DNA of 64,000 bases from Actinomycetota bacterium (GTDB lineage: Bacteria > Actinomycetota > Actinomycetes > Propionibacteriales > Nocardioidaceae): positions 95,455 through 159,454 of the forward strand of contig WLJH01000004.1 in assembly GCA_009701885.1 (NCBI GenBank), in the 5' to 3' direction. The translations under genes were made by a program, and so were the position numbers. The notes under the pieces are model-generated. The model was not told where the DNA came from. It was given only the letters and a program-made list of their open reading frames with translations, and made no database searches. Positions 2,790 to 16,109 of this stretch are shown here, piece after piece. Each line of letters starts with the position of its first letter. Position 1 is the stretch's first letter.

Positions 2790-3536
2790 CTACTGCCCGG
2801 CGCGCTCGGCGTAGGTCGTGGCGGCGGCGTGCACGGCCTCGACGTACTCCCGGCTGCGGTTGTAGCTCAGGACCGCGTCGGTCCAGGCCTCACCGGAGGT
2901 GAGGTCGCGACCGGAGGCGCAGAGGTAGCGCGCCGCGGTGGCGGCCGCGTCGTCGAGGTCGTGGGGGTCAATGACGCCGTCGTCGTCGCCGTCGGCGGCC
3001 CACGGCTCCCAGGAGGAGCGGAGGAACTGCATCGGACCGACCGCGCGCTCCCAGACCTCGTCACCGTGCCAGGCGGCCGACGTCGGGGTGGAGCGGATGG
3101 CCGCCACGGGGCCCTCCCCGTTCAACGGCACCCCGATGATCGGCGGTTCCGAGCGGCCGTCGAGGGTCAGGACCCGGTCGTCGATGGTGCCGTGGTGCGA
3201 CTCGACCCAGCCGATGCCGGCCAGCGTGGTCCAGCCCAGCTCGCAGCCACCGACCCCGGAGAGCTGCGCGTCGGCGTACGCCCGGAGCGCGGGGAGCGGG
3301 ATGCCGGTGCGACGGGAGGTCTGCTCCAACCAGCGCTGGTCGACCAGCTGCCCGCCCACCGGTGCCGCTGCGGGCGCGTCGGCCGTGACCGGGACGGGGG
3401 CGGCGAGGTAGGCCGCGGGCGGGGTCAGGTCCAGCGCCCGCGGCGTGGCGTAGAGCCTCGACAGCCCGAACGCCGCAGCCGTCACGACGACCAGCAGCGT
3501 CGCGAAGAGCGCGATCGAGCGCGGGCCGGAGATCAC
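2790..3536 (-). CDS. Secreted lytic murein transglycosylase
   Basis: N-terminal TM; ELGWTTLAGIGWVESHHGTI...GPMQFLRSSWEPWAADGDDDGVIDPHDLDDAAATAARYLCASG. Confidence 0.85.
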   Translation of the reverse strand: MISGPRSIALFATLLVVVTAAAFGLSRLYATPRALDLTPPAAYLAAPVPVTADAPAAAPVGGQLVDQRWLEQTSRRTGIPLPALRAYADAQLSGVGGCELGWTTLAGIGWVESHHGTIDDRVLTLDGRSEPPIIGVPLNGEGPVAAIRSTPTSAAWHGDEVWERAVGPMQFLRSSWEPWAADGDDDGVIDPHDLDDAAATAARYLCASGRDLTSGEAWTDAVLSYNRSREYVEAVHAAATTYAERAGQ

Positions 3537-3573: not shown

Positions 3574-4443
3574 TCAGCCGAAGCGTCCGTGGACGTAGTC
3601 GGCGGTGCGCTCGTCCTGCGGGCTCTCGAACATGGCCCGGGTGTCACCGTGCTCGACGATCACCCCCGGCGTGCCGTGGGCGGCGAGGAAGAAGGCGCAC
3701 TGCGAGGAGACGCGCGCGGCCTGCTGCATGTTGTGCGTGACGATGACGATCGTGACCTCTCGGGCCAGCTCGAGCATCGTCTCCTCGATCACCCGCGTCG
3801 AGGTCGGGTCCAGTGCCGAGCAGGGCTCGTCCATGAGCAGCACCCGCGGCTTGACCGCGAGGGAGCGGGCGATGCACAACCGCTGCTGCTGACCACCGGA
3901 GAGCCCACCGCCGGGGGCGTCGAGCCTGTCCTTGACCTCGTTCCAGAGGCCGCCCTTGACCAGGCAGGCCTCCACGAGCTCGTCCTTCTCCGAGCGGGAC
4001 GCCTTGGTGCCGGTGAGCTTCAGCCCGGCCAGGACGTTCTCGCGGATGGACATGGCCGGGAACGGGTTGGGCTTCTGGAAGACCATGCCGATGGCCCGGC
4101 GGGCGTCGATGAGCTTCTTGGCCGGGTCGTAGATGTCCTCACCGTCCAGCCACACCTCTCCGGCGAGCTGGGCGGAGGGCACCAGCTCGTGCATGCGGTT
4201 GAGGATGCGCAGGAACGTGGACTTGCCACAGCCCGAGGGACCGATGAGGGCGGTGATCGCGCCGGCGGACATGGTGAGCGAGACCCGGTCCAGGACCTTG
4301 CGCTCACCGAACCACGCGGTGATCTCGCGAGCGTCGAGCTCCGCGAGTCGCTCCCCTCCAGCCGGCCCGTCCTGGACGGGGCTGCCAGGCACGGGGGCGC
4401 CGGGGACGGCCGGGAGGACGGTGGTCGCGTCGGTGCTGCTCAT
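3574..4443 (-). CDS. pstB: Phosphate ABC transporter ATP-binding protein PstB
   Basis: Walker [47 protein letters not shown]; typical PstB. Confidence 0.93.
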
Positions 4444-4491
4444 CAGGGTCTCTCTCGTCACGGTCGTGCGGGGTGCATACGGCTGGGACCG

Positions 4492-4527
4492 GGTGCGGGC
4501 GGCCCTCCCACGAGGGCCGCCCGCACC
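4492..4527 (-). terminator. Perfect 16-bp stem, 4-nt loop hairpin between the Ig-PBP gene and pstB
   Basis: ggtgcgggcggccctc-ccac-gagggccgcccgcacc, 15 bp past the end of the 4542-6056 CDS. Confidence 0.75.
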
Positions 4528-4541
4528 GGCGCTGCGGTGGG

Positions 4542-6056
4542 CTACTTCTTGACCTTCACCAGGACGGTGACGGTCTGGTCGCCGAAGGCGACCGTGTACC
4601 GGGTGTTCTTCTTGACCTTCTTGGCGAGCAGGGTGGCCTGACCGCCGGACAGGGTGGCGGAGTCGATCTCCTTGGCGCCCTTGAGCAGGGTGACGGTGCC
4701 GCTCGCGCCGGCAATCGTGACCTGGACCTTCGCGGTCTTGCCCGGGGCCACCGGCTTGGCCTTGGCCACGATGTCGACCCGGTCGGACACGGTGACGGTG
4801 ACGTCGTCGGAGGAGGCCAGGAAGCCGTCCCCGGGCTCGAGGGTCGCGGTGTAGGTGCGGCTGCCGGCAGCGACGCCGGTCAGGGTCGCGGTGGCGCGGC
4901 CCTGGACGATCGGCACGTCGGCGGCGACGACGGTCGCGCCCTCGGTGAACGTGACCGTGCCGGTGGGGGTGCCCGCCGCCGACGACACGGTCGCGACCAG
5001 CTCGACCCGACCAGCGGACGGGCTGGTGGCGGTCAGGGCGGTGGTGGTCTCGGCCACCTCGTTCACGGCGAAGTTGCTGGTCGAGGACTGCGTGGGGACG
5101 CCGCAGGCACCGCCGTTCGCCTCGCGCGCCAGCTGGAAGAAGCCGGCAGCCTCGATCAGCGGCGCGGCCGCGTCGGAGCAGAGGAAGCCGTCGGGTCCGA
5201 AAGCGGCCAGCAGGTCGGCGCGGCCCACGTCGGCCCCGCGCACGACGTTGTAGAGGGCACGGTTCGCGGAGAACCCCCCGGTGAGCTTGATGACCGGGCC
5301 GGCGGCACCGGCGCGGCCGGTGGAGAAGGGCGCGACGGCGTTGGGGTCGGACTGCACGGGAGCGGGGTCGTGCTCCTGGACCTCCTGCACCGAGGCGGCG
5401 AGCGCCACGGCGACACCACCGTTGGCGGCCTGCAGCTGGGAGACGAAGAACGAGCGGGTGCCCGAGCCCGCCTGCGGGATGAGCGGCTTGATGACGCCGG
5501 GCTGGCCGCCGATCTCGCTCCAGTTGGTCACGGAGCCGTCGTAGATCCTGACCATGTCGGCGGCGGAGATGCTCGCCGGGGCGTTGGACGCCACGGTGTT
5601 CGACACCGCGAGCTTGAGACCGTCGACCGCGAAGGGGAAGTTCTGGAGGCCAGCGGCGCGCTCGGCGTCGTTGAGGCCGGAGGAGGACCGAGCGAAGTCG
5701 ATCTCAGGCAGGTTGTTGGCGCCGTACAGGCGACCCTTGCCGGCTCCCGAACCGTTGGGCCGGGTGATGGTGGTCCCGCCCGGGATCGTGATCTCCCCGC
5801 CCCCTCCTGCCTGGAAGGAGGCGATCCGGCCGGTGGTGCGGCCCTCGTTGAAACCAGGCGTGCCCTCGAAGCCCTCGGCGAGGTAGTGCATCGAGATCTC
5901 GGTGGTGTCCGAGCCGACGCCCACCAGGTCCGCGGAGGCGGGGGTGAAGGTGGGGTCGAAGGGCAGCGCGGCCGAGGCGGTCGGGGCGCTGAGGGCGATC
6001 GCCGACGCGGCGAGGGCCGCGGTGACGAGCCCGCTGAGGGTCTTGCTCGACTTCAT
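4542..6056 (-). CDS. PstS-like phosphate-binding protein with C-terminal Ig-like repeat domains
   Basis: Signal peptide; [10 protein letters not shown]..., [36 protein letters not shown] (PBP motif); C-terminal [16 protein letters not shown]... Ig-like region. Confidence 0.85.
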
Positions 6057-6210
6057 GGATTCGCTCTCTCTGGTGGGGGTGCTGCACGGGTGGAGCCGGG
6101 TGGGACTGGCCGCCGGTCCCGAGACCCGGCGGGGGCGTGGTGATCCTCAGCGGCTCGACGACGAGTCGTCAGCGGCTTCGGACGGGGTTCGGCGACGGTT
6201 CACAGCCGCG

Positions 6211-7239
6211 TCACATCACGTTGGGGAGGAGTCGGACCAGCACTTCGGTCGTGGCCCAGGCCAGGGCGGCCACGACCGGCGCGGCGAGCAGCCACACCTG
6301 GACCGTCGACCACCGCTGGCGCGCGGAGATGATGGTCAAGGTGGCGAGCACGAGCGCCGTCAGGCAGGTCGCGAGCAGCGGCAGCACGGCGGTCTCCCCG
6401 GCGAGCACCTGCTCGGCGGCCGGCACGGCGCCCGGTCGTCCGGGCGGCGCGGGGAAGGCCTCCTGGGCCTCTGCGTCGACGTAGACCGCCTCCCCCGGGG
6501 TCAGACCGCCCAGGCGCCCCTCGCCCTCGGCGCTGGCGAGGACCAGCCGGGCCACGCCTGCGGTGCGCGGCTGGGGCAGCGGGTCACCGGTCCGGCGCAC
6601 GCCCAGCACCCGGAACTCGCGGGTCCCCTGGGCGATCACGACCTCGATGACGTCACCGGGCTGCAGCTCGGTGATCCGCGAGAAGGGTCCGCCGTACGTC
6701 GCAGCGCGACCCATCACGACCGCGGTGCCGTCCTGGCCCGGGAGCACGGTGTTGCGCTGGTGACCGGGTCCCGCCCTCAGGTCCCCGGACGCGGTGCCCT
6801 CGACGACCACCTGCTCCAGGTCGATGGCCGGGACGCGCAGGAGGGCGACCGGCTCGCCGACGGGGACCACCGGGCCGACAGGGGCCGTCGCGGAGGCGAC
6901 GTCGGTGCGGAACTGGTCGTAGAGCAGGTCCTGGGACCGCTCGTGCTTGAGGTCTCCGAGGAGCAGCAGCTGGACGAAGACCCAGAGGCAGACGACGGCC
7001 AGCATGAACGCGGCCGACTGCGTGGCTGCCTGCGCACCGGTGGGGAGCGGCCTCGGTGGCCGGGGACCGGTCCGGTCCCGGCGCAGCGACACCCGGCGCA
7101 GGGACACCCGGCGGGGCGGCTTCGTCAGGCGGCGGGCGGCTCGGGTCGGCCCGGGCGCGGCGACCGGCGCGGCACCAGTCACCGGGCCGGCGGGCGCGGC
7201 CGGCCCGGGCGACGCGCTCGCCGGCTCCGTCATCGTCAT
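6211..7239 (-). CDS. Sortase-fold membrane protein, predicted catalytically inactive
   Basis: Two TM regions and sortase-like core GPGHQRNTVLPGQDGTAVVMGRAATYGGPFSRITELQPGDVIEVV; the GHR and TC catalytic motifs are replaced. Confidence 0.75.
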   Translation of the reverse strand: MTMTEPASASPGPAAPAGPVTGAAPVAAPGPTRAARRLTKPPRRVSLRRVSLRRDRTGPRPPRPLPTGAQAATQSAAFMLAVVCLWVFVQLLLLGDLKHERSQDLLYDQFRTDVASATAPVGPVVPVGEPVALLRVPAIDLEQVVVEGTASGDLRAGPGHQRNTVLPGQDGTAVVMGRAATYGGPFSRITELQPGDVIEVVIAQGTREFRVLGVRRTGDPLPQPRTAGVARLVLASAEGEGRLGGLTPGEAVYVDAEAQEAFPAPPGRPGAVPAAEQVLAGETAVLPLLATCLTALVLATLTIISARQRWSTVQVWLLAAPVVAALAWATTEVLVRLLPNVM

Positions 7240-9857
7240 CGACCGAGTCCTGCCCGGGGAGGTCGCACGAAGAAGCGGCCCGTGGCCACCACGAGCGTGC
7301 CGAGCAGTCCCCCGAGGAAGAGCAGCGGGAGCAGCATCCCAGCGACCCGGGAGGAGATCGGTGTGGTCGCCGGCATCGCCACCGGCTCGGTGCCCGCCTC
7401 CACGGGGTCGGTCACGGGCGCGGACGCAGGCTCGTCGGCCTCCCCGGGGAGCTCCGCGGCCGGCACGTCGAGCGGGCCCGCCGGGCCGCTCGCGCCCCCC
7501 GACGTACCCCCGCCCGCGGGGTCGGGTCCCTCGCTGCCTTCCTCTTCGGGCGTGCTGCCGGCGGGAGGAGTCTGGGCCGCGACGGCGTCCGCGGTCTGCC
7601 GCGCGGCGGCGAGCAGCGGTGCCGTCGGGCCGGAGCTGCGCAGGGGCAGGAACCCCGCGGGGAGCTCACCGTTGCCGGGCCCCTGGCGCTGCCCATCGGA
7701 CGTGGCGATCCGGATGAACTGCGCCACCGTCGCGGCGTCGGCCTTCGACAGGTTGCGCATCCGCGCGGCCGTGTAGACGACCATCGTGCCCGGATACGCC
7801 TGGGTGCTGCGACGCACGGCCTGCTGGTCCAGGACGAACGGCTGCGTCGGGCCCTGCGGCTCCATCAGCTGGACGGCGGCGGCCAGGGACGCCGCGTCCG
7901 GGGAGACGAAGCTGCCGGGTTCGGCCTGCAGTGCCGCCGTGCGCAGGCCGAACCGCGCGGCGTCACCGAGGCTGACCACCCCGAGCATGAAGCGGGCACC
8001 GAAGGACTGCCGAGGGACACGCCCGATCCGGAACAAGCCGGTGTCCGGCTCGAACTCGCAACGCGTCTGGACGTTCGGGTGCGCGTCGAGGATCGCCTCG
8101 CTGACCTTGCGCAGGGCGGTGACCGGTGCGGCCAGCTGGTTGAAGTAGACCGCCGGGTTCTGCTGGCGGCAGGTGTTGCCGGTCTCGGGGACGTAGTCGT
8201 CGAGCAGCGGTATGGAGGTCGCGGGCAGCTGCAGGTCGCGGTAGTTCGGGTTGACGACCATGCCCCACGGGTCGGCCTCGCCGGCGATGAAGTCGCGGGC
8301 GTCCTTGTCGGCCACGACCCACTCGGTCAGCTGGTGGATCACGTCGGACTCGTTGGACAGCGACAGCAGCGTCGCCCCCGCTTCCTGGTTGATCTGCGGC
8401 AGTCCGGGGTTCAGCTCGACGAACTCGGGGTCCTGGATGATCGAGAGCGGGTTGTCCCCGATGCCGGGGTGCCCCCGCCCCAGGTCGGACCCGAGGTAGG
8501 ACTGGGTCAGCAGCTTGGCGACCAGCCTCGGGGTGAGGCGCAGCGTGCTCACCTCGCCCGCGTTGTCCGGCTTGTCGGCGACGTACGCCACGGCGAAGCC
8601 GGTCACGGCTGTCGGCGCGTAGCCGACCGGGTCGGGCCCGGTCTGCTCGTGACCCGAGCTGACCAGGGCCGCGGGGCCGCCGCCACTCTCCATCAGGGCG
8701 AAGCCGGCCTCGTCGGACATCTGGTTGTGCTGGAACTTGAACCGGTCCTTGCGCAGGCAGTAAGCCGGCGCCCACTGCAGGGCGGCCTGCGCGAGCAGCT
8801 CGGTGCCGTAGAAACCGGTGGGCGGGCGTGGGTCGAGGACGTCGCACGTGTCGGGTGGCAGACCGAAGCTGATCGGGATCGAGAAGCGGTGCCTCCAGTT
8901 CGAGGGCGACCACCACAGGCCGGGCGAGACCGCCTGGTCCACGCCGTTCCCGGCGAAGTTGCCGCTCCCGGGGGTGAAGCGACCGGTACGACGACAGGCC
9001 TGGTCACCGGTGGACGGGGGGCTGGACGGCGCGTCGCAGGAGAGCCCGACGATCGGGATGACCACGACCGAGCACGCGACCTCGTGGTTGCAGCCGAGCG
9101 ACTCGTTCTCGACGTCCGAGCGCACCTCGAACTGCACCTCCCCGTTGCCCTCGAGGTCGGTGAACGCGGCGAGCTCCGCAGGCGGGAACGCCGCGCCGAC
9201 CGCGGCCTCCGGCGGCATCTGGTCGGACTGGCAGGCCGGGAACGTCCGTCCCGAGGCTGCGACGAACGGGGTCAGGCGCGTGCTGAAGTCGCCGAGGTCG
9301 GCCGACGGGCACACCTCTGCCGAGGGCAACGGGTCGAGGCCGGAGACCCGCACCTTGTCCGCCTCGTCGGCGTCGAGGTCGTGCCGCCAGGTGGACTCGG
9401 CGTTGCCGCGGGTGATCTGCGAGCGCTGGGCGACCGAGGCGGTCCAGCACGTCTCCGGGCGCAGCTGCTCCTCGCCCGGCCCGGGATCGTCGACCCCGCG
9501 GCACTGCATGATCACGACCGGGTACTCCTGCGCGAGCCCGCTCTCGCCGTACGGGTTGCTGGCGCGACCACCGCTGGGCTGGGCGCCGCTCCACGTGATC
9601 CGGATGCGCTGACGCCCCCGGAGCTCGGTGGTCTGGTCGGCGGTGACGGTGACGTCGTACGCCGGGAACTCCTGACGGCTGCCGTCGGGGCGCACGAACA
9701 CCCTCTGCAGCGTCCTCGTCTCCGCGTAGGCCGGCTTCGCGCGCGCCGCGGGCTCCTCAACGCCTCCGGCCGGCGCCGGCCCGAGGGCGAGACCGCCGAT
9801 GCCGAGGGTGCCGGCGCCGAGGACCGCGGCCACCACGGTGGCGACCGCGCGCCTCAC
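7236..9857 (-). CDS. Large secreted, C-terminally membrane-anchored protein with PBP-like region
   Basis: N-terminal signal (RRAVATVVAAVLGAGTLG), cysteine pairs, PBP-like AYPGTMVVYTAARMRNLSKADAATVAQFIRIA, Pro/Gly/Glu linker, C-terminal TM MLLPLLFLGGLLGTLVVATGRFF; start within ORF to 9947 uncertain. Confidence 0.75.
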   Translation of the reverse strand: MRRAVATVVAAVLGAGTLGIGGLALGPAPAGGVEEPAARAKPAYAETRTLQRVFVRPDGSRQEFPAYDVTVTADQTTELRGRQRIRITWSGAQPSGGRASNPYGESGLAQEYPVVIMQCRGVDDPGPGEEQLRPETCWTASVAQRSQITRGNAESTWRHDLDADEADKVRVSGLDPLPSAEVCPSADLGDFSTRLTPFVAASGRTFPACQSDQMPPEAAVGAAFPPAELAAFTDLEGNGEVQFEVRSDVENESLGCNHEVACSVVVIPIVGLSCDAPSSPPSTGDQACRRTGRFTPGSGNFAGNGVDQAVSPGLWWSPSNWRHRFSIPISFGLPPDTCDVLDPRPPTGFYGTELLAQAALQWAPAYCLRKDRFKFQHNQMSDEAGFALMESGGGPAALVSSGHEQTGPDPVGYAPTAVTGFAVAYVADKPDNAGEVSTLRLTPRLVAKLLTQSYLGSDLGRGHPGIGDNPLSIIQDPEFVELNPGLPQINQEAGATLLSLSNESDVIHQLTEWVVADKDARDFIAGEADPWGMVVNPNYRDLQLPATSIPLLDDYVPETGNTCRQQNPAVYFNQLAAPVTALRKVSEAILDAHPNVQTRCEFEPDTGLFRIGRVPRQSFGARFMLGVVSLGDAARFGLRTAALQAEPGSFVSPDAASLAAAVQLMEPQGPTQPFVLDQQAVRRSTQAYPGTMVVYTAARMRNLSKADAATVAQFIRIATSDGQRQGPGNGELPAGFLPLRSSGPTAPLLAAARQTADAVAAQTPPAGSTPEEEGSEGPDPAGGGTSGGASGPAGPLDVPAAELPGEADEPASAPVTDPVEAGTEPVAMPATTPISSRVAGMLLPLLFLGGLLGTLVVATGRFFVRPPRAGLGR

Positions 9858-11500
9858 GAGCGTGCTCCCGTGGGGCGGCGCCGCAGCACGGCGACGTAGA
9901 GGCCCGGGAGGACCACCAGGACCACGAGCAGCAGGCCCGAGAGCCACGCGAAGGCGCGGGTGTCGCCCGCCCGGTCCGAGACCAGGATCGTGCTGGGGTC
10001 GGCGTACACCGCCCCCGCCTCGGCGACCCCTCCGGCCGCGCCCCCCACGACCTCTCCGGTCACGGGATCGATCGACGTCGGGGCCGCGCCCGCGCCGCCC
10101 CCGCCGCCCGCGCCACCGACGTCGACCCCCGTCTCACCACCGGCGGCACCTCCCGCACCACCCGCGGACCCGGCACCAGCGCCGTCGTCGGTGGAGGGTT
10201 CGCCGGTGCCCGTGGCCGTGCCGCAAGGACCCGCGCCGACCTTGTCGCAGGAGGCCGGCTGCGGGGCGATCTGCGCCAGCTTGTTGTTGCTGAGGTTCTT
10301 GCCGTCGAAGGTGGGGTTGTTGCAGGAGCGGACGTCCCGGTTGCTCAGGTCGACGTCCTTGTCGGCCTCCCCGAGCTTGGCGATCTGCTCGAAGCCGGCC
10401 TGCACGAGGTTGAGCGGGAGCGGGGAGTACCCGTAGGGCCCCGCCTTCGTCTGACCGGCGCACAACGAGTAGTACATGAAGTCGGCCAGTGTCTGCCGCT
10501 TCGCCGTGGTCATCCGCGGGTCGTCCGCGGCGGTGGGGATGATCATGTAGGAGTACGAGGAGATCGGGTACGCCCGCGGGTCCGGGTTCCGGTAGACGTC
10601 GTCGAGGATCTGGGTGAGGTAGGTGCTCGGGTCGTTGGGGTTCGAGGTGTTGATCCGGGCCCTGGTCAGCGCGACCGCCACGTTGAACTGGGTGGGCTCG
10701 ACGTAGTAACCACCCTGGTTCAACACCTTCACCACCGGGAAGTTCTTGTCGACCGGGTAGGAGTACTCGACGTACCCGATGAAGCCGTTGCCCGTGCTGG
10801 AGGCGATCGCGTTCATGACCTGGTCGGAGCCGGCCTGGCTGACGGTCCTGGAGCCCGACTTCTTCGGGTAGTACGAGGTCAGGCCGGCCTTGCCGAAGTA
10901 GGGCCGCCAGATGCTGGGGTGCTCCTTGTCCATCCAGCTGGTGAACTGGGCCGTGGTCCCCGACCCGTCTGCCCGGACGACCGGGGTGATCGGCACGCTG
11001 GGGAACGCGCGGCCGTTGTTGTCCTTCGTGATCGCCGGGTCGTTCCAGTTGGTGATCTGGTTGGTGAAGATCTTCGCGATCGTCTCCCCCGACAGCCGCA
11101 GGTTGCGGACCAGCTCGTTGCCGATCTTCAGCTGGTAGGTGAAGGCGGTGCCACCCGCGACGATCGGGAGGTAGGCGAAGTCGCGGCCGTTGGAGGTGTC
11201 GGCGTTGCCCTGCTCGTCGGTGCCCTGGTAGGGGATCTCGGAGATGGCGAAGTCGTTGGTGTCCTGGGAGAAGTCCTTGCGGCCCTTCGTGGAGCCGCCA
11301 CCGGTGTAGACGACCTTCATGCCCGAGGCGTCCACGTCGGCGATCCACTGCTGGACGATGATCTCCGACCAGGTCGAACCGGTCCCCTCGATCTGGGCGT
11401 ACGTCGCCGCCTGGGCCGCCGACGGCATCCCGGCGACGCCGGCGACGGCGAGCACGAGCGCGGCGGCGCAGCGGGCGAGGACGGAGAAGGGGCGGTTCAC
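9854..11500 (-). CDS. pstS: Phosphate-binding protein PstS with Gly/Ala-rich linker and C-terminal TM anchor
   Basis: YAQIEGTGSTWSEIIVQQW...FTNQITNWNDPAITKDN...PVVRADGSGTTAQFTSWM; C-terminal LSGLLLVVLVVLPGLYVAVLRRRP; GTG start at 11500. Confidence 0.9.
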   Translation of the reverse strand: MNRPFSVLARCAAALVLAVAGVAGMPSAAQAATYAQIEGTGSTWSEIIVQQWIADVDASGMKVVYTGGGSTKGRKDFSQDTNDFAISEIPYQGTDEQGNADTSNGRDFAYLPIVAGGTAFTYQLKIGNELVRNLRLSGETIAKIFTNQITNWNDPAITKDNNGRAFPSVPITPVVRADGSGTTAQFTSWMDKEHPSIWRPYFGKAGLTSYYPKKSGSRTVSQAGSDQVMNAIASSTGNGFIGYVEYSYPVDKNFPVVKVLNQGGYYVEPTQFNVAVALTRARINTSNPNDPSTYLTQILDDVYRNPDPRAYPISSYSYMIIPTAADDPRMTTAKRQTLADFMYYSLCAGQTKAGPYGYSPLPLNLVQAGFEQIAKLGEADKDVDLSNRDVRSCNNPTFDGKNLSNNKLAQIAPQPASCDKVGAGPCGTATGTGEPSTDDGAGAGSAGGAGGAAGGETGVDVGGAGGGGGAGAAPTSIDPVTGEVVGGAAGGVAEAGAVYADPSTILVSDRAGDTRAFAWLSGLLLVVLVVLPGLYVAVLRRRPTGARS

Positions 11501-12816
11501 CGGGGCTCCTGGGGCGGGGTGGGACGGTCGTCCGGACTGGTGGGGAAGGCGGGATCGGGCGGCGGTGGCACAGGGGTGGGGGCCGGGCTCACCGCGCCGG
11601 CCACCGAGGCGGGGTTGGCCCGGGCGAGGTCGAGACCCCGCTGCGCCCAGCCCCCGCGCGGGGTCAGCGAGAAGCGCCGGCGCTTCGTGGACCGGGGCGG
11701 ACGGGCGAGCAGACGAGCGACGACGAAGAGCAGGAGTACGAGCACCAGCAGGACGCTCGCCGCCCCGAAGGCGCGCAGGATCGCGGTGTCCTCGCCACTG
11801 CGCACGTTGGAGTAGATGAAGAGCGGGAGCGAGTTCATGGCGCCGTCGGTCGGACCTACCACGAAGAACATCGCCGCACCCGACGTCAGGAGCACCGGGC
11901 TCGTCTCGCCCACGCCTCGCGCGGAGCCGAGGATCACTGCGGTCGCCAGGCCGGGACGGGCCGTGGGCAGCACGACGTGCCAGACCGTCTTCCAGCGCGA
12001 GGCGCCGAGGGCCAGGCTGGCCTCGCGCAGGCCGCCCGGCACGACCCGCAGCACCACGTCGGCCGCTCGGGCGATGATCGGCAGCATCATCACCGCGATC
12101 GCCAGGCCCGCGGCCAGGCCCGACCGGGGTTGACCGAGGGTCAGGATGAAGACGGTGTAGACGAACAGGCCCGCCACGATCGAGGGAAGCGCGGTCATCG
12201 CCTCCACGATGGTGCGGACCAGCCTGGCGAATCGTCCGCCCACCTCGGTCATGAAGACGGCCGTCCCGATACCGAGCGGCAGGGTGATGGCCAACCCGAT
12301 GCCGAGCTGGATCAGCGACCCCAGCACCGCGTGGGCGATGCCGCCGCGCGTGAAGGGGTCGCGCGGGCCGACGCCGGCCATGTCGTCGGTGAAGAAGTTC
12401 AGGTGGAGGAGGGGCCCCCAGCCCTCCCAGAAGACGAAACCGACCGTCGAGACCAGGGCGACGCCGACCGTGACGGCCCCGCCGGTGATGACCGACGCGG
12501 CCAACCTGTCCCTCACCGCGATCGAGCCGCCCTGCATGCCGGCGAGCACGGCTGTCACGAGCAACCCCAGGGCGAACCAGGCGAGCACGAACCATGCGAG
12601 GCCCGGCAGCGGCAACAGCTGCTGGGTCAGCAGCCAGGCGAGGGCACCGGCGGACAGCCACGGGCCCCACCGGACCAGCTGCTCATCGGCGCTCGGCCGA
12701 CCGATCGAGGTGCGCGGTACCGCCGGGGCTGCGTCTTCGTCGACCTGGGGCAGGTGCGTGGTGCCGGCCGGGAGGCCGAGGCCGGTGGCCGTGGGGCGGG
12801 TCTGCTGGATCGTCAT
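11497..12816 (-). CDS. pstA: Phosphate ABC transporter permease PstA
   Basis: Multi-TM; EAMTALPSIVAGLFVYT, LREASLALGASRWKTVWHVVLPTARPGLATAVILGSARGVGETSPVLLTSG. Confidence 0.92.
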   Translation of the reverse strand: MTIQQTRPTATGLGLPAGTTHLPQVDEDAAPAVPRTSIGRPSADEQLVRWGPWLSAGALAWLLTQQLLPLPGLAWFVLAWFALGLLVTAVLAGMQGGSIAVRDRLAASVITGGAVTVGVALVSTVGFVFWEGWGPLLHLNFFTDDMAGVGPRDPFTRGGIAHAVLGSLIQLGIGLAITLPLGIGTAVFMTEVGGRFARLVRTIVEAMTALPSIVAGLFVYTVFILTLGQPRSGLAAGLAIAVMMLPIIARAADVVLRVVPGGLREASLALGASRWKTVWHVVLPTARPGLATAVILGSARGVGETSPVLLTSGAAMFFVVGPTDGAMNSLPLFIYSNVRSGEDTAILRAFGAASVLLVLVLLLFVVARLLARPPRSTKRRRFSLTPRGGWAQRGLDLARANPASVAGAVSPAPTPVPPPPDPAFPTSPDDRPTPPQEPR

Positions 12817-13832
12817 CAGGCGTCCGTCCCCGTGCCGGAGCGGCTGCGGTTGACCACGACTGCCGCCAGGGTGTTGACCAGCAGCGTGATCAGGAAGAGC
12901 ACGAACCCGGCAGCCAGGAGCGCCGAGAGCTGCGCCGGGCTCGCCTCGCCGAACTGCAGGGCGATGTGGGCGCTGACGGAGTTGCTCCCGATCTCCGTGA
13001 GATTCCACTTCACGTCGAAGGTCGGGCTGATGATGAGGACGACCGCGATGGTCTCGCCCAGGGCCCGACCGAGCCCGAGCATGGTCCCGCCGATGATGCC
13101 GCCGCGGCCGAAGGGCAGCACGACCGAGCGGATCATCCCCCACCGGGTGGCTCCCAGCGCGAGCGCGGCCTCCTTCTCCCCCTGCGGGGTCTGCGAGAAG
13201 ACCTGTCTCATGACGGCGCACGCCATCGGGAGCACCATCATCGCCACGGCGATCCCAGCGGCGAAGGAGCTGTAGAGGTAGCGACTGGCGTCGGGGACGG
13301 CCGCGTCCGGGTCGGTGCCGCGGATGTCGAAGAACGGGATCCAGCCCAGGTTGGCGTGCAGCCACTGCGCGAGCTCGCCGGCCCGCGGCATGATCAGCAG
13401 GTAGCCCCACAGGCCGTAGACGATCGAGGGGACGGCGGCCATCAGGTCGACCATCGCGACGAGCGTGGACTTGATCCGCTCGGGGGCGTACTCACTGATG
13501 TAGAGCGCGGTCAGCAGCGCCAACGGGAAGGCGAAGGCCATCGCCACGAGCGCGATCGACACCGTGCCCGTGAGGACCGCCGCGATGCCGACGACGTCCT
13601 CCTCGGGCAGCCAGCGACTCTCGGTGAAGAAGTCCAGCCCGTAGCGGCTCAGCGTGGGGTACGCCTGCCAGCCGAGGAACAGGCCGACCCCGCCGGTGAT
13701 GACCAGGACCGAGGCACCGATCGCGCGGGCCGAGTGCTCGAAGACCGCGTCGACGCCCCTGGCCTTGCGGGAGACACGACGCGGCACGACGTCGAACCCG
13801 GTCGCCTCGTCGTAGGACGGCAGCGTGGTCAC
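12816..13832 (-). CDS. pstC: Phosphate ABC transporter permease PstC
   Basis: Multi-TM; DLMAAVPSIVYGLWGYLLIMP, EKEAALALGATRWGMIRSVVLPFGRGGIIGGTMLGLGRALGETIAVVLI. Confidence 0.92.
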   Translation of the reverse strand: MTTLPSYDEATGFDVVPRRVSRKARGVDAVFEHSARAIGASVLVITGGVGLFLGWQAYPTLSRYGLDFFTESRWLPEEDVVGIAAVLTGTVSIALVAMAFAFPLALLTALYISEYAPERIKSTLVAMVDLMAAVPSIVYGLWGYLLIMPRAGELAQWLHANLGWIPFFDIRGTDPDAAVPDASRYLYSSFAAGIAVAMMVLPMACAVMRQVFSQTPQGEKEAALALGATRWGMIRSVVLPFGRGGIIGGTMLGLGRALGETIAVVLIISPTFDVKWNLTEIGSNSVSAHIALQFGEASPAQLSALLAAGFVLFLITLLVNTLAAVVVNRSRSGTGTDA

Positions 13833-13918: not shown

Positions 13919-13962
13919 CCCTGGTGAACTGTCGGGGAACGCTCGGCCGGCCTTTCCCGAAC
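13919..13962 (-). promoter_or_regulatory. Putative PHO box (PhoP-binding direct repeats) upstream of pstC
   Basis: Minus strand reads GTTCGGGAAAG GCCGGCCGAGC GTTCCCCGACA GTTCACCAGGG: three GTTC-type 11-mers in register over four units. Confidence 0.7.
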
Positions 13963-14066
13963 GGGCTAGGCGTGGCTGCGAGCCGTAGTCCGAAAGGGCC
14001 AGGTCCTCGGGACCGGAGTAGCCCGGACGGGGTTGACGGCAGGTGAACGCCGTCCCAACCGTGCGA

Positions 14067-14687
14067 TCAGGCGGTGGGCGGCCCGGTCAGCACCCCGTGC
14101 GCGGCGAGCAGCCGCTCGAGCGCCGCGTGCCCCTGGTCGAGGTGCCAGTGCTCGGCACGCAGGCCGACCGCCCGGGCGGCCTCGACGTTGGTCTCCATGT
14201 CGTCGACGAAGAGCACTTCAGCCGCCGGGGCACCGATCCGCTCGACGGCGATCTCGAAGTAGGTCGGCTCGGGCTTCTTGGTGCCCATCTCCCAGGAGTA
14301 GCAGGAGACGTCGAAGAGGTCGTCGTAGCCCAGCACGGTCGCCATGTGCTCACCACGCTGCCGGTGCTGGTTGGTGCCCAGGTGGACGCCGAGACCGGCC
14401 GCGCGGAGCCGCCGGACCAGGGCCAGGCTCTCCGGAGAGGGGGTGATGTCGTGCCAGAGCCGGCGGTAGACCTCGAGCGGGTCGACCTCGGCGTACGACG
14501 GCACGACGGCCTCCACGACGTGCAGGAAGTCGCCCTCGCCCCTCAGCGGTCCACGCTCGGCGGTCCACAGGGCGCGGCCGAGCTCCTCGGCCCGGTCGCC
14601 GGCCCACTCGACCAGCAGGCCGATCGGGTCCGGGGCGCTGCGCTGCAGCACCCCGTCGGCGTCGAGCAGGACGTGGCGGACCGGCAC
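14067..14687 (-). CDS. HAD-family hydrolase
   Basis: VRHVLLDADGVLQ ... LGTNQHRQRGEHM ... GTKKPEPTYFEIAVERIGAPAAEVLFVDDMETNVEAARAVG. Confidence 0.9.
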   Translation of the reverse strand: MPVRHVLLDADGVLQRSAPDPIGLLVEWAGDRAEELGRALWTAERGPLRGEGDFLHVVEAVVPSYAEVDPLEVYRRLWHDITPSPESLALVRRLRAAGLGVHLGTNQHRQRGEHMATVLGYDDLFDVSCYSWEMGTKKPEPTYFEIAVERIGAPAAEVLFVDDMETNVEAARAVGLRAEHWHLDQGHAALERLLAAHGVLTGPPTA

Positions 14688-14703
14688 GGTGGGTGGGGCC
14701 GGC

Positions 14704-15486
14704 TCAGTCGGTGCCGTGCTCGGCGATGAAGGCGAGGATCTGCTCCGACAGTTCCGGACGGCAGACGATGAGATCGGGGAGGTAGACGTCGTCCTGGTTG
14801 TAGACCAGCTCGTCGCCGTTGACCCGCGAGGTGAACAGGCCGGCGGCGCGGGCGACTGCGACGGGGGCCGCGGAGTCCCACTCGTACTGCCCACCGGCGT
14901 GGACGTAGGCGTCGGCCACGTCGCGCACGACCGACATCATCTTGACCCCTGCCGAGCCCATGGGGACCAGCTCGGCGCCCATCTCCTCGGCGAGGGCCTG
15001 CACGAAGGCCGGCGGGCGGCTGCGGGAGACCGCGATGCGCGGTCGCTCCGAGGTGCTCGGCGGCACCACCGGCGGGTGACCGGTGTTGAACGTCTCGCCC
15101 AGCACGGGCTGCGCGACCGCGCCGGCGACCAGCGCGCCGCCCTGCCACAGCGCCACGTGCACGGCCCAGTCGTCGCGCGGGGGCTCGGAGAACTCGCGGG
15201 TGCCGTCGAGCGGGTCGATGATCCACACGCGCTCGGCGGAGAGCCGGGCCTTGTCGTCCTTGCCCTCCTCCGAGAGCACGGCGTCCGCGGGACGGTGCTC
15301 GGCGACCAGGCGCATCAGCAGCTCGTGAGCGGCGGCGTCGCCGGCGTCCTTGAGCTCCTTGCCCTCCAGACCCTCGGCCCGCACCTCGAGGAGGCGGCGG
15401 CCGGCCACCTCGGCCAGCCAGGTGGCGAGGACGTGGTCGTCGGCGTCGACGGGGGGCGTTCCGGGCTCAAAACCAGTGGAGGTCAC
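14704..15486 (-). CDS. cysQ: 3'(2'),5'-bisphosphate nucleotidase CysQ / inositol monophosphatase family
   Basis: LSEEGKDDKARLSAERVWIIDPLDGTREFSE ... YEWDSAAPVAVARAAG. Confidence 0.88.
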   Translation of the reverse strand: MTSTGFEPGTPPVDADDHVLATWLAEVAGRRLLEVRAEGLEGKELKDAGDAAAHELLMRLVAEHRPADAVLSEEGKDDKARLSAERVWIIDPLDGTREFSEPPRDDWAVHVALWQGGALVAGAVAQPVLGETFNTGHPPVVPPSTSERPRIAVSRSRPPAFVQALAEEMGAELVPMGSAGVKMMSVVRDVADAYVHAGGQYEWDSAAPVAVARAAGLFTSRVNGDELVYNQDDVYLPDLIVCRPELSEQILAFIAEHGTD

Positions 15487-15506
15487 GCCCTGCAGGCTAT
15501 CGGCGC

Positions 15507-16109
15507 TCAGCTGTTGAAGCGCTGCTGGGTCTTCTCGAGCCCGTCGGAGACGAGCGACTCGACCGCGTCGGCGGCGGTGTCGACCACGAAGGGCAGCACC
15601 TTGCGCTCGGCCGAGGAGTAGTCCGACAGCACGAAGTCGGCGACCTCCTGGCGACCCGGGGGGCGGCCGATGCCGACCCGCACCCGGTGGAAGTCGCCGG
15701 TGCCGAAGGAGGAGCGCATCGACTTCAGGCCGTTGTGACCGTTGTCGCCGCCGCCGAGCTTGACCCGCATCGTGTCGAACGGGATGTCCAGCTCGTCGTG
15801 GATCGCCACGACCTGGGCGGGGGCGACCTTGTAGAAGGTCGCGAGGGCCTTCACCGGCCCGCCGACCTCGTTCATGTAGCAGCGCGGACGGGCCAGGACC
15901 ACCCGCGGCCCGGGGACGCCGGGCGGGGTCAGCCGGCCCTCGACGACGTCGGCACGGCCGGACTTGTGGGCCCGGAAGCCCGAGCCCATCCGGCGGGCCA
16001 GCTCGTCGGTGACCATGTAGCCGATGTTGTGCCGGTGCCCGGCATAGCTCGGGCCCGGGTTCCCCAGCCCGACGACCAGCCACACGTCAGTGGTCGAGTC
16101 GTCGCTCAT
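15507..16109 (-). CDS. pth: Peptidyl-tRNA hydrolase
   Basis: [29 protein letters not shown] ... [17 protein letters not shown] ... [13 protein letters not shown]. Confidence 0.95.

Follow-up and report, generated by a model that had tools for sequence, protein, structure and literature searches.

A pst gene cluster with a conserved and apparently undescribed accessory module of PstS-like and sortase-like proteins in actinobacteria

Organization of the gene cluster

A cluster of seven genes was identified on the minus strand of the window, i.e. the stretch of 64,000 nucleotides of contig WLJH01000004.1 from a Nocardioidaceae genome (GCA_009701885.1) that was analyzed here. The genes follow each other in the order pstC, pstA, pstS with a transmembrane segment (TM-PstS), a gene for a large protein, a gene for a sortase-fold protein, a gene for a secreted PBP with Ig part and pstB (Table 1), and the gene order and strand given in the initial annotation were confirmed by the window sequence and by Pfam and NCBIfam assignments. 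PstC, PstA and PstB are all of the phosphate type according to curated phosphate-transporter models; for pstB, TIGR00972 was the best-matching model although the score was just under its cut-off. From pstC to the sortase-fold gene the reading frames overlap by 1 to 4 bases, with pstA overlapping both pstC and pstS, and the overlaps formerly described from pstA onwards thus start already at pstC. No phoU gene was found in the cluster, as had also been stated before, and the only PhoU matches of the genome are located on another contig. Just upstream of pstC (window positions 14067-15600), a HAD-type hydrolase gene and an apparent inositol-monophosphatase-type (CysQ-like) gene are located; both also accompany the cluster in several Nocardioides loci, probably as a result of shared synteny.

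Table 1. Features of the cluster and its surroundings, in window coordinates
Feature	Position	Strand	Evidence
Second candidate PHO box	14031-14048		12/14 by reading
PHO box GTTCCCCGACAGTTCACC	13923..13940	-	13/14 positions
pstC, ABC permease	12816..13832	-	TIGR02138 8.3e-75, 251.5 bits vs cut-off 196.5: passes
pstA, ABC permease	11497..12816	-	TIGR00974 6.4e-61, 205.9 bits vs cut-off 193.5: passes
pstS	9854..11500	-	PF12849 (PBP_like_2) 2e-46; TIGR00975 7e-55, below cut-off
Pseudo-PstS, 873 aa	7236..9857	-	AlphaFold2, Foldseek, profile match to TM-PstS
Pseudo-sortase	6211..7239	-	Sortase PF04203 4e-13; AlphaFold2; Foldseek; residue counts
Secreted Ig-PBP	4542..6056	-	PF12849 (PBP_like_2) 1e-13; PF16640 (Big_3_5) 1.6e-12
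pstB, ATPase	3574..4461	-	TIGR00972 6.8e-100, 333.5 bits vs cut-off 343.2
SLT/MltB-type lytic transglycosylase	2790..3533	-	PF13406 1.8e-7; start codon inferred

Distribution and conservation of the cluster

Three samples of genomes were searched for the cluster. Among 59 genomes of relatives, the window's own included, the large protein was present in 21, and strong, near full-length matches to the sortase-fold protein were obtained in exactly the same 21 genomes, while the remaining 38 contained neither protein and at most weak matches to sortases (Fisher 2e-16, uncorrected for kinship). The distribution is patchy: within the genus, 19 of 37 genomes possess the module. Another search, covering 84,980 species with one genome each, yielded 208 relatives, of which the best 80 loci were read. 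These belong to Nocardioides, Pimelobacter, Aeromicrobium, Mumia, Marmoricola, Janibacter, Kribbia, Cellulomonas, Pengzhenrongella and a Promicromonosporaceae genome. In these best 80 loci, the order of the seven genes is kept in nearly every locus long enough to show all of them, conserved residues are found in open frames, and the junctions pstC/pstA, pstA/pstS, pstS/large gene and large gene/sortase-fold gene show an overlap of 1 or 4 bases in 45-56 of 74-77 loci. Gaps of about 90 bp and about 85 bp separate the secreted-PBP gene and pstB, respectively, from the genes preceding them; given these flanking gaps of about 90 bp, both genes may or may not share the core transcript. Of 58 loci that were informative in this respect, 32 have the gene of the lytic transglycosylase immediately next to the cluster, and it was not found in 22 of them.

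The phylum-wide sample of 397 genomes gave 13 matches, three of which (L165-L167) were rejected as module loci since they are plain PstS operons. One match is the window's genome and another one a genome of the same family with the same gene order (L156). The other eight are far more distant genomes, in which the parts of the cluster are present in shuffled gene orders: the pst genes are divergent from the genes for the sortase-fold protein, the large protein and the PBP in L162, and L164 has the order PBP, pstC, pstA, pstB, pstS, large protein, sortase-fold protein. No pstB was seen before the locus edge in L160, and the PBP match of L157 is partial at the edge. The arrangement is therefore not unique to one genome, as the gene-neighborhood check in the best 80 of 208 loci and the eight distant genomes demonstrated. 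The divergences of PstS, large protein and sortase-fold protein are correlated with each other (r 0.76-0.85, a value without a baseline of unrelated genes).

Some genomes (L059, L071, L082, L092 and L046-L048; e.g. G010, G004 and G024) possess the module twice, wholly or in part, with a diverged second copy in tandem or at another site. The match to the secreted-PBP gene is split into four pieces in one locus (L038:6319-7990, G035), as would be expected from frame disruptions in this assembly. The search for plasmid-borne copies returned ordinary sortases only.

Three PstS-like proteins of different condition

The TM-PstS consists of a signal peptide, a PstS domain, a Cys-containing extension, a linker and a C-terminal TM. 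Alignment to solved PstS structures revealed that the equivalents of Arg135, Ser139, Gly140 and Thr141 are retained and invariant, and that the equivalent of Asp56 is replaced by an invariant Glu (invariant residues R176, S180, G181, T182 and E88 in A5); Asp56 is a phosphate-contacting residue of E. coli PstS. The Cys-containing extension after the PBP domain (gene at window positions 9854-11500) is conserved. A motif before the TM was counted in 45 of 75 sequences with a loose pattern and no control, and it was not used as evidence.

The length of 903 aa originally assigned to the large protein had to be revised. Its start at GTG 9947 was rejected by comparison with relatives, and GTG 9857, resulting in 873 aa, is most likely the start since the same 4-base overlap with pstS occurs in 49 of 76 relatives. 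The protein comprises a signal peptide, a beta domain, a degenerate PstS domain, a linker and a C-terminal TM with a sorting-signal-like tail. The large protein of the window matched no Pfam family and TIGR00975 only weakly (4e-4). The best Foldseek matches of its AlphaFold2 model (pLDDT 85) were PstS proteins (4lvq, TM-score 0.79 normalised to the target), and profile comparison with the TM-PstS gave E 8e-5 and a probability of 62%. In the profile alignment with the TM-PstS, the phosphate-loop positions R, D, S, G and T are occupied by L, N, S, D and V. Judged from the model, the large protein clearly has the fold of PstS, with a lost phosphate loop, and it is hereafter called pseudo-PstS. 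Its homologue in L163 is PstS-like by profiles but has a neocarzinostatin-PBP-TM architecture and was recognised by its domains, with matches to neocarzinostatin (PF00960, 1.2e-7) and PBP_like_2 (3e-22) that are both above cut-off; these two matches identified the domain order of the large protein by homology. A PF00960 match was not obtained for the window's own protein, the N-terminus of which is too diverged. When the large protein alone was compared with PDB sequences, the only matches were to a lytic transglycosylase and at chance level, and they were rejected.

In the tail of the large protein, 37 of 77 members vs 7% in shuffles show the motif [LMIV]PxT, which in most cases precedes the TM by about 14 residues; a basic end follows. 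The motif-bearing sequences are related and represent only part of the loci, and the MPxT-like tail, a lead, may reflect shared history or chance.

In the secreted PBP, the SGT of the loop is kept and the motif Arg is replaced by Pro according to the alignments. The Ig domain or domains are absent in Cellulomonas and allies and, therefore, not essential. In the window (positions 4545-5000), the Ig part ends in a Lys-rich segment with a potential to bind anionic polymers of the wall. Three proteins were initially assumed to be phosphate-binding-like; this description holds for the TM-PstS with its intact loop, while the other two have lost key phosphate residues, so that the sequences do not support the scavenging of phosphate by several displayed PBPs as first worded.

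Loss of the catalytic residues in the sortase-fold protein

The AlphaFold2 model of the sortase-fold protein (pLDDT 86) shows a TM helix, a beta barrel and two C-terminal TM helices, and its top Foldseek matches were sortases (4d70, target-normalised TM-score 0.72). Three TMs are present in all, together with a long and probably cytoplasmic N-terminal extension. The catalytic His, Cys and Arg are retained in none of 78 aligned members. The His position (AGH in active enzymes) is occupied by Arg in 77 of the 78 sequences and by Lys in one, and the Cys position (TC in active enzymes) by Ala, Ser, Gly or Val. The strand to which the catalytic Arg belongs reads VYVDA, and the Cys and Arg positions were assigned by motif context rather than by residue-level superposition of structures. 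Profile alignment to solved sortases puts the Arg opposite the His. The same catalytic losses were found in nine further members, eight of them from the distant loci; the two other sortases of the window's genome keep AGH and TC/SC. As the catalytic residues are replaced in all members, the domain is fixed in a presumably inactive state, and the protein is termed pseudo-sortase. The earlier assignment of a sortase fold was therefore correct (PF04203, AlphaFold2 and Foldseek), and a working sortase is not what the sequences indicate, the residues needed to sort being absent. Going by the alignments, two worn-down proteins, a sortase without catalytic residues and a phosphate receptor without binding loop, are nevertheless conserved.

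PHO box and the other phosphate transport genes of the genome

The PHO box of Streptomyces consists of two 11-nt direct repeats (PMC7866108). Sites were scored as two GTTCACC units 11 bp apart (14 positions) with a threshold of 12 of 14. In the best 80 of 208 loci, 58% of 71 loci have a site with at least 12/14 at a distance of roughly 90-150 bp upstream of pstC, compared to 0% in shuffles; the upstream regions of pstS, pstB, the large gene and the pseudo-sortase gene contain no such site (0%). A weak PHO-box-like site before the secreted-PBP gene, present at 12/14 or better in 11% of loci, is not claimed. Among the distant loci, a PHO box could not be clearly made out. The second condition set against the initial proposal, middle genes that are not co-transcribed or not phosphate-regulated, did not materialise at the level of sequence: overlaps join the core genes, and a PHO box lies ahead of the first of them, pstC.

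The genome possesses a separate, canonical operon of pstS (lipoprotein), pstC, pstA and pstB on another contig (L137:8512-12657), which has a PHO box of 14/14 positions. An apparent Pit-type phosphate permease gene is located nearby on the other strand. A separate additional PstC was present in seven of seven module genomes checked, whereas five of five congeners without the module hold one PstC. The further PstC in the window's genome and in the seven others marks the window cluster as an additional Pst system, and the view that the cluster takes the place of an ordinary PstS system has to be abandoned: it adds to an ordinary pst operon.

Proposed function and alternatives

Taken together, the sequence data describe a complete PstC-PstA-PstB transporter and a TM-PstS, accompanied by a conserved travelling module of pseudo-PstS, pseudo-sortase and secreted PBP. 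The PHO box and the PstS with intact phosphate loop provide the link to phosphate, and the cluster is likely an additional phosphate-responsive accessory Pst importer. That this extra importer is equipped with its own membrane-anchored receptor complex is a reading to which we give slightly less than an even chance, and it is weakened by the loss of the phosphate Arg from the secreted PBP. In such a complex, PhoP would turn on the cluster during phosphate starvation, phosphate, or a ligand bearing it, would be captured by the secreted PBP within or at the wall, and the pseudo-sortase would hold PstS and pseudo-PstS by their uncut tail anchors, thereby clustering receptors around PstCA. The pseudo-PstS would serve as a structural or docking subunit and not as a receptor for phosphate, and the lytic transglycosylase, where present, might open the wall for the assembly. 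A role of the pseudo-sortase as non-catalytic scaffold for tail-anchored receptors is plausible, albeit tentative. Rather doubtful is the more specific notion that the dead sortase reads the sorting-signal-like tails of the two tail-anchored binding proteins (one live, the other dead), so that these are arrayed around the transporter without covalent linkage, with the secreted PBP of the wall layer as collecting antenna.

The most serious alternative, which we regard as unlikely, concerns the ligand: three divergent PBPs could serve different phosphate-bearing ligands (an ester, pyrophosphate, phosphonate or wall-derived phosphate) or hand one over. The invariant exchange of Asp56 for Glu in the TM-PstS, the Arg lost from the secreted PBP and the replaced loop of the large protein fit this idea, as do the canonical Pst of the window's genome and the separate PstC of all seven module genomes checked; however, PstC, PstA and PstB belong to the phosphate type, and the TM-PstS retains the equivalents of Arg135, Ser139, Gly140 and Thr141.

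A phosphate sensor, in which the ligand-free pseudo-PstS docks on PstCA and, together with the pseudo-sortase, reports transporter occupancy to Pho signalling, is improbable. Such a sensor would account for a pseudo-PstS with kept fold and lost ligand residues, for the three TMs and the long, probably cytoplasmic extension of the pseudo-sortase and for the PHO box before pstC, but the cluster contains no phoU gene, and the canonical Pst and the unlinked PhoU of the same genome are available for the sensing role. It is highly improbable that the sortase-fold protein still anchors covalently by means of a non-canonical site, the large protein being a wall-linked receptor: the sorting-signal-like tail and the sortase fold predicted at high confidence would agree with this, yet no Cys, His or Arg occupies the catalytic positions in 78 sequences and nine further ones. 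A chance or decaying cluster without joint function, for which the patchy spread (19/37 genomes of the genus) might speak, is scarcely credible, being already contradicted by the residues conserved in open frames across loci, by the strict co-occurrence and by the joint recurrence after rearrangement.

The preferred reading of an accessory importer with its own receptor complex touches two open questions, namely how phosphate passes through the thick Gram-positive wall to PstCA and why some bacteria keep a second Pst, and the conserved phosphate-linked gene set makes both testable in culturable Nocardioides. The connection of a second importer to four unusual surface proteins in many soil actinobacteria suggests an undescribed phosphate-collecting surface machine. 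In addition, the apparent pseudo-sortase family fixed across the phylum and the paired pseudo-receptor represent folds kept after active-site loss. If true, the dead-sortase array would be a new class of ABC-importer receptor assembly in Gram-positive bacteria.

Comparison with known systems

The transporter is of a known kind, and the accessory module is apparently undescribed: no description was found in the open literature searched, which leaves most subscription journals outside, and no model of its own exists in Pfam or NCBIfam. The initial proposal of a conserved, apparently undescribed system is borne out by this result together with the recurrence across loci.

The cluster shares PstC, PstA, PstB, a PstS-type receptor with phosphate loop and the upstream PHO box with the PstSCAB(-PhoU) importer. 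Unlike in the latter, pstS is third and not first, phoU is missing, three conserved proteins are added, and PstS is tethered by a C-terminal TM with a Cys-containing segment instead of a lipid anchor. The 873-aa protein has the fold of PstS from M. tuberculosis and E. coli (4lvq, 1pc3, 1ixh; target-normalised TM-score up to 0.79) but differs from these in the replacement of the R-x-D-x-S-G-T loop and in the addition of a C-terminal TM and a large N-terminal beta domain, which is probably related to neocarzinostatin as judged from L163. With PstS-2 type PBPs (TIGR02136; Vibrio 1twy, Clostridium 4gd5) the secreted PBP has the PBP_like_2 domain and SGT in common, whereas the Pro in place of the motif Arg and the optional Big_3_5-type Ig domains set it apart. 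The pseudo-sortase resembles class E and D sortases (Streptomyces SrtE 5go5/5cuw, Clostridium perfringens SrtD 4d70) in the barrel, the N-terminal TM and the GPGH..T.LPGQ.G and GAPF elements; in contrast to these enzymes, it has two extra C-terminal TMs, His, Cys and Arg are replaced in every member, and its score is far under the curated sortase cut-offs (60 vs 160 bits for class E).
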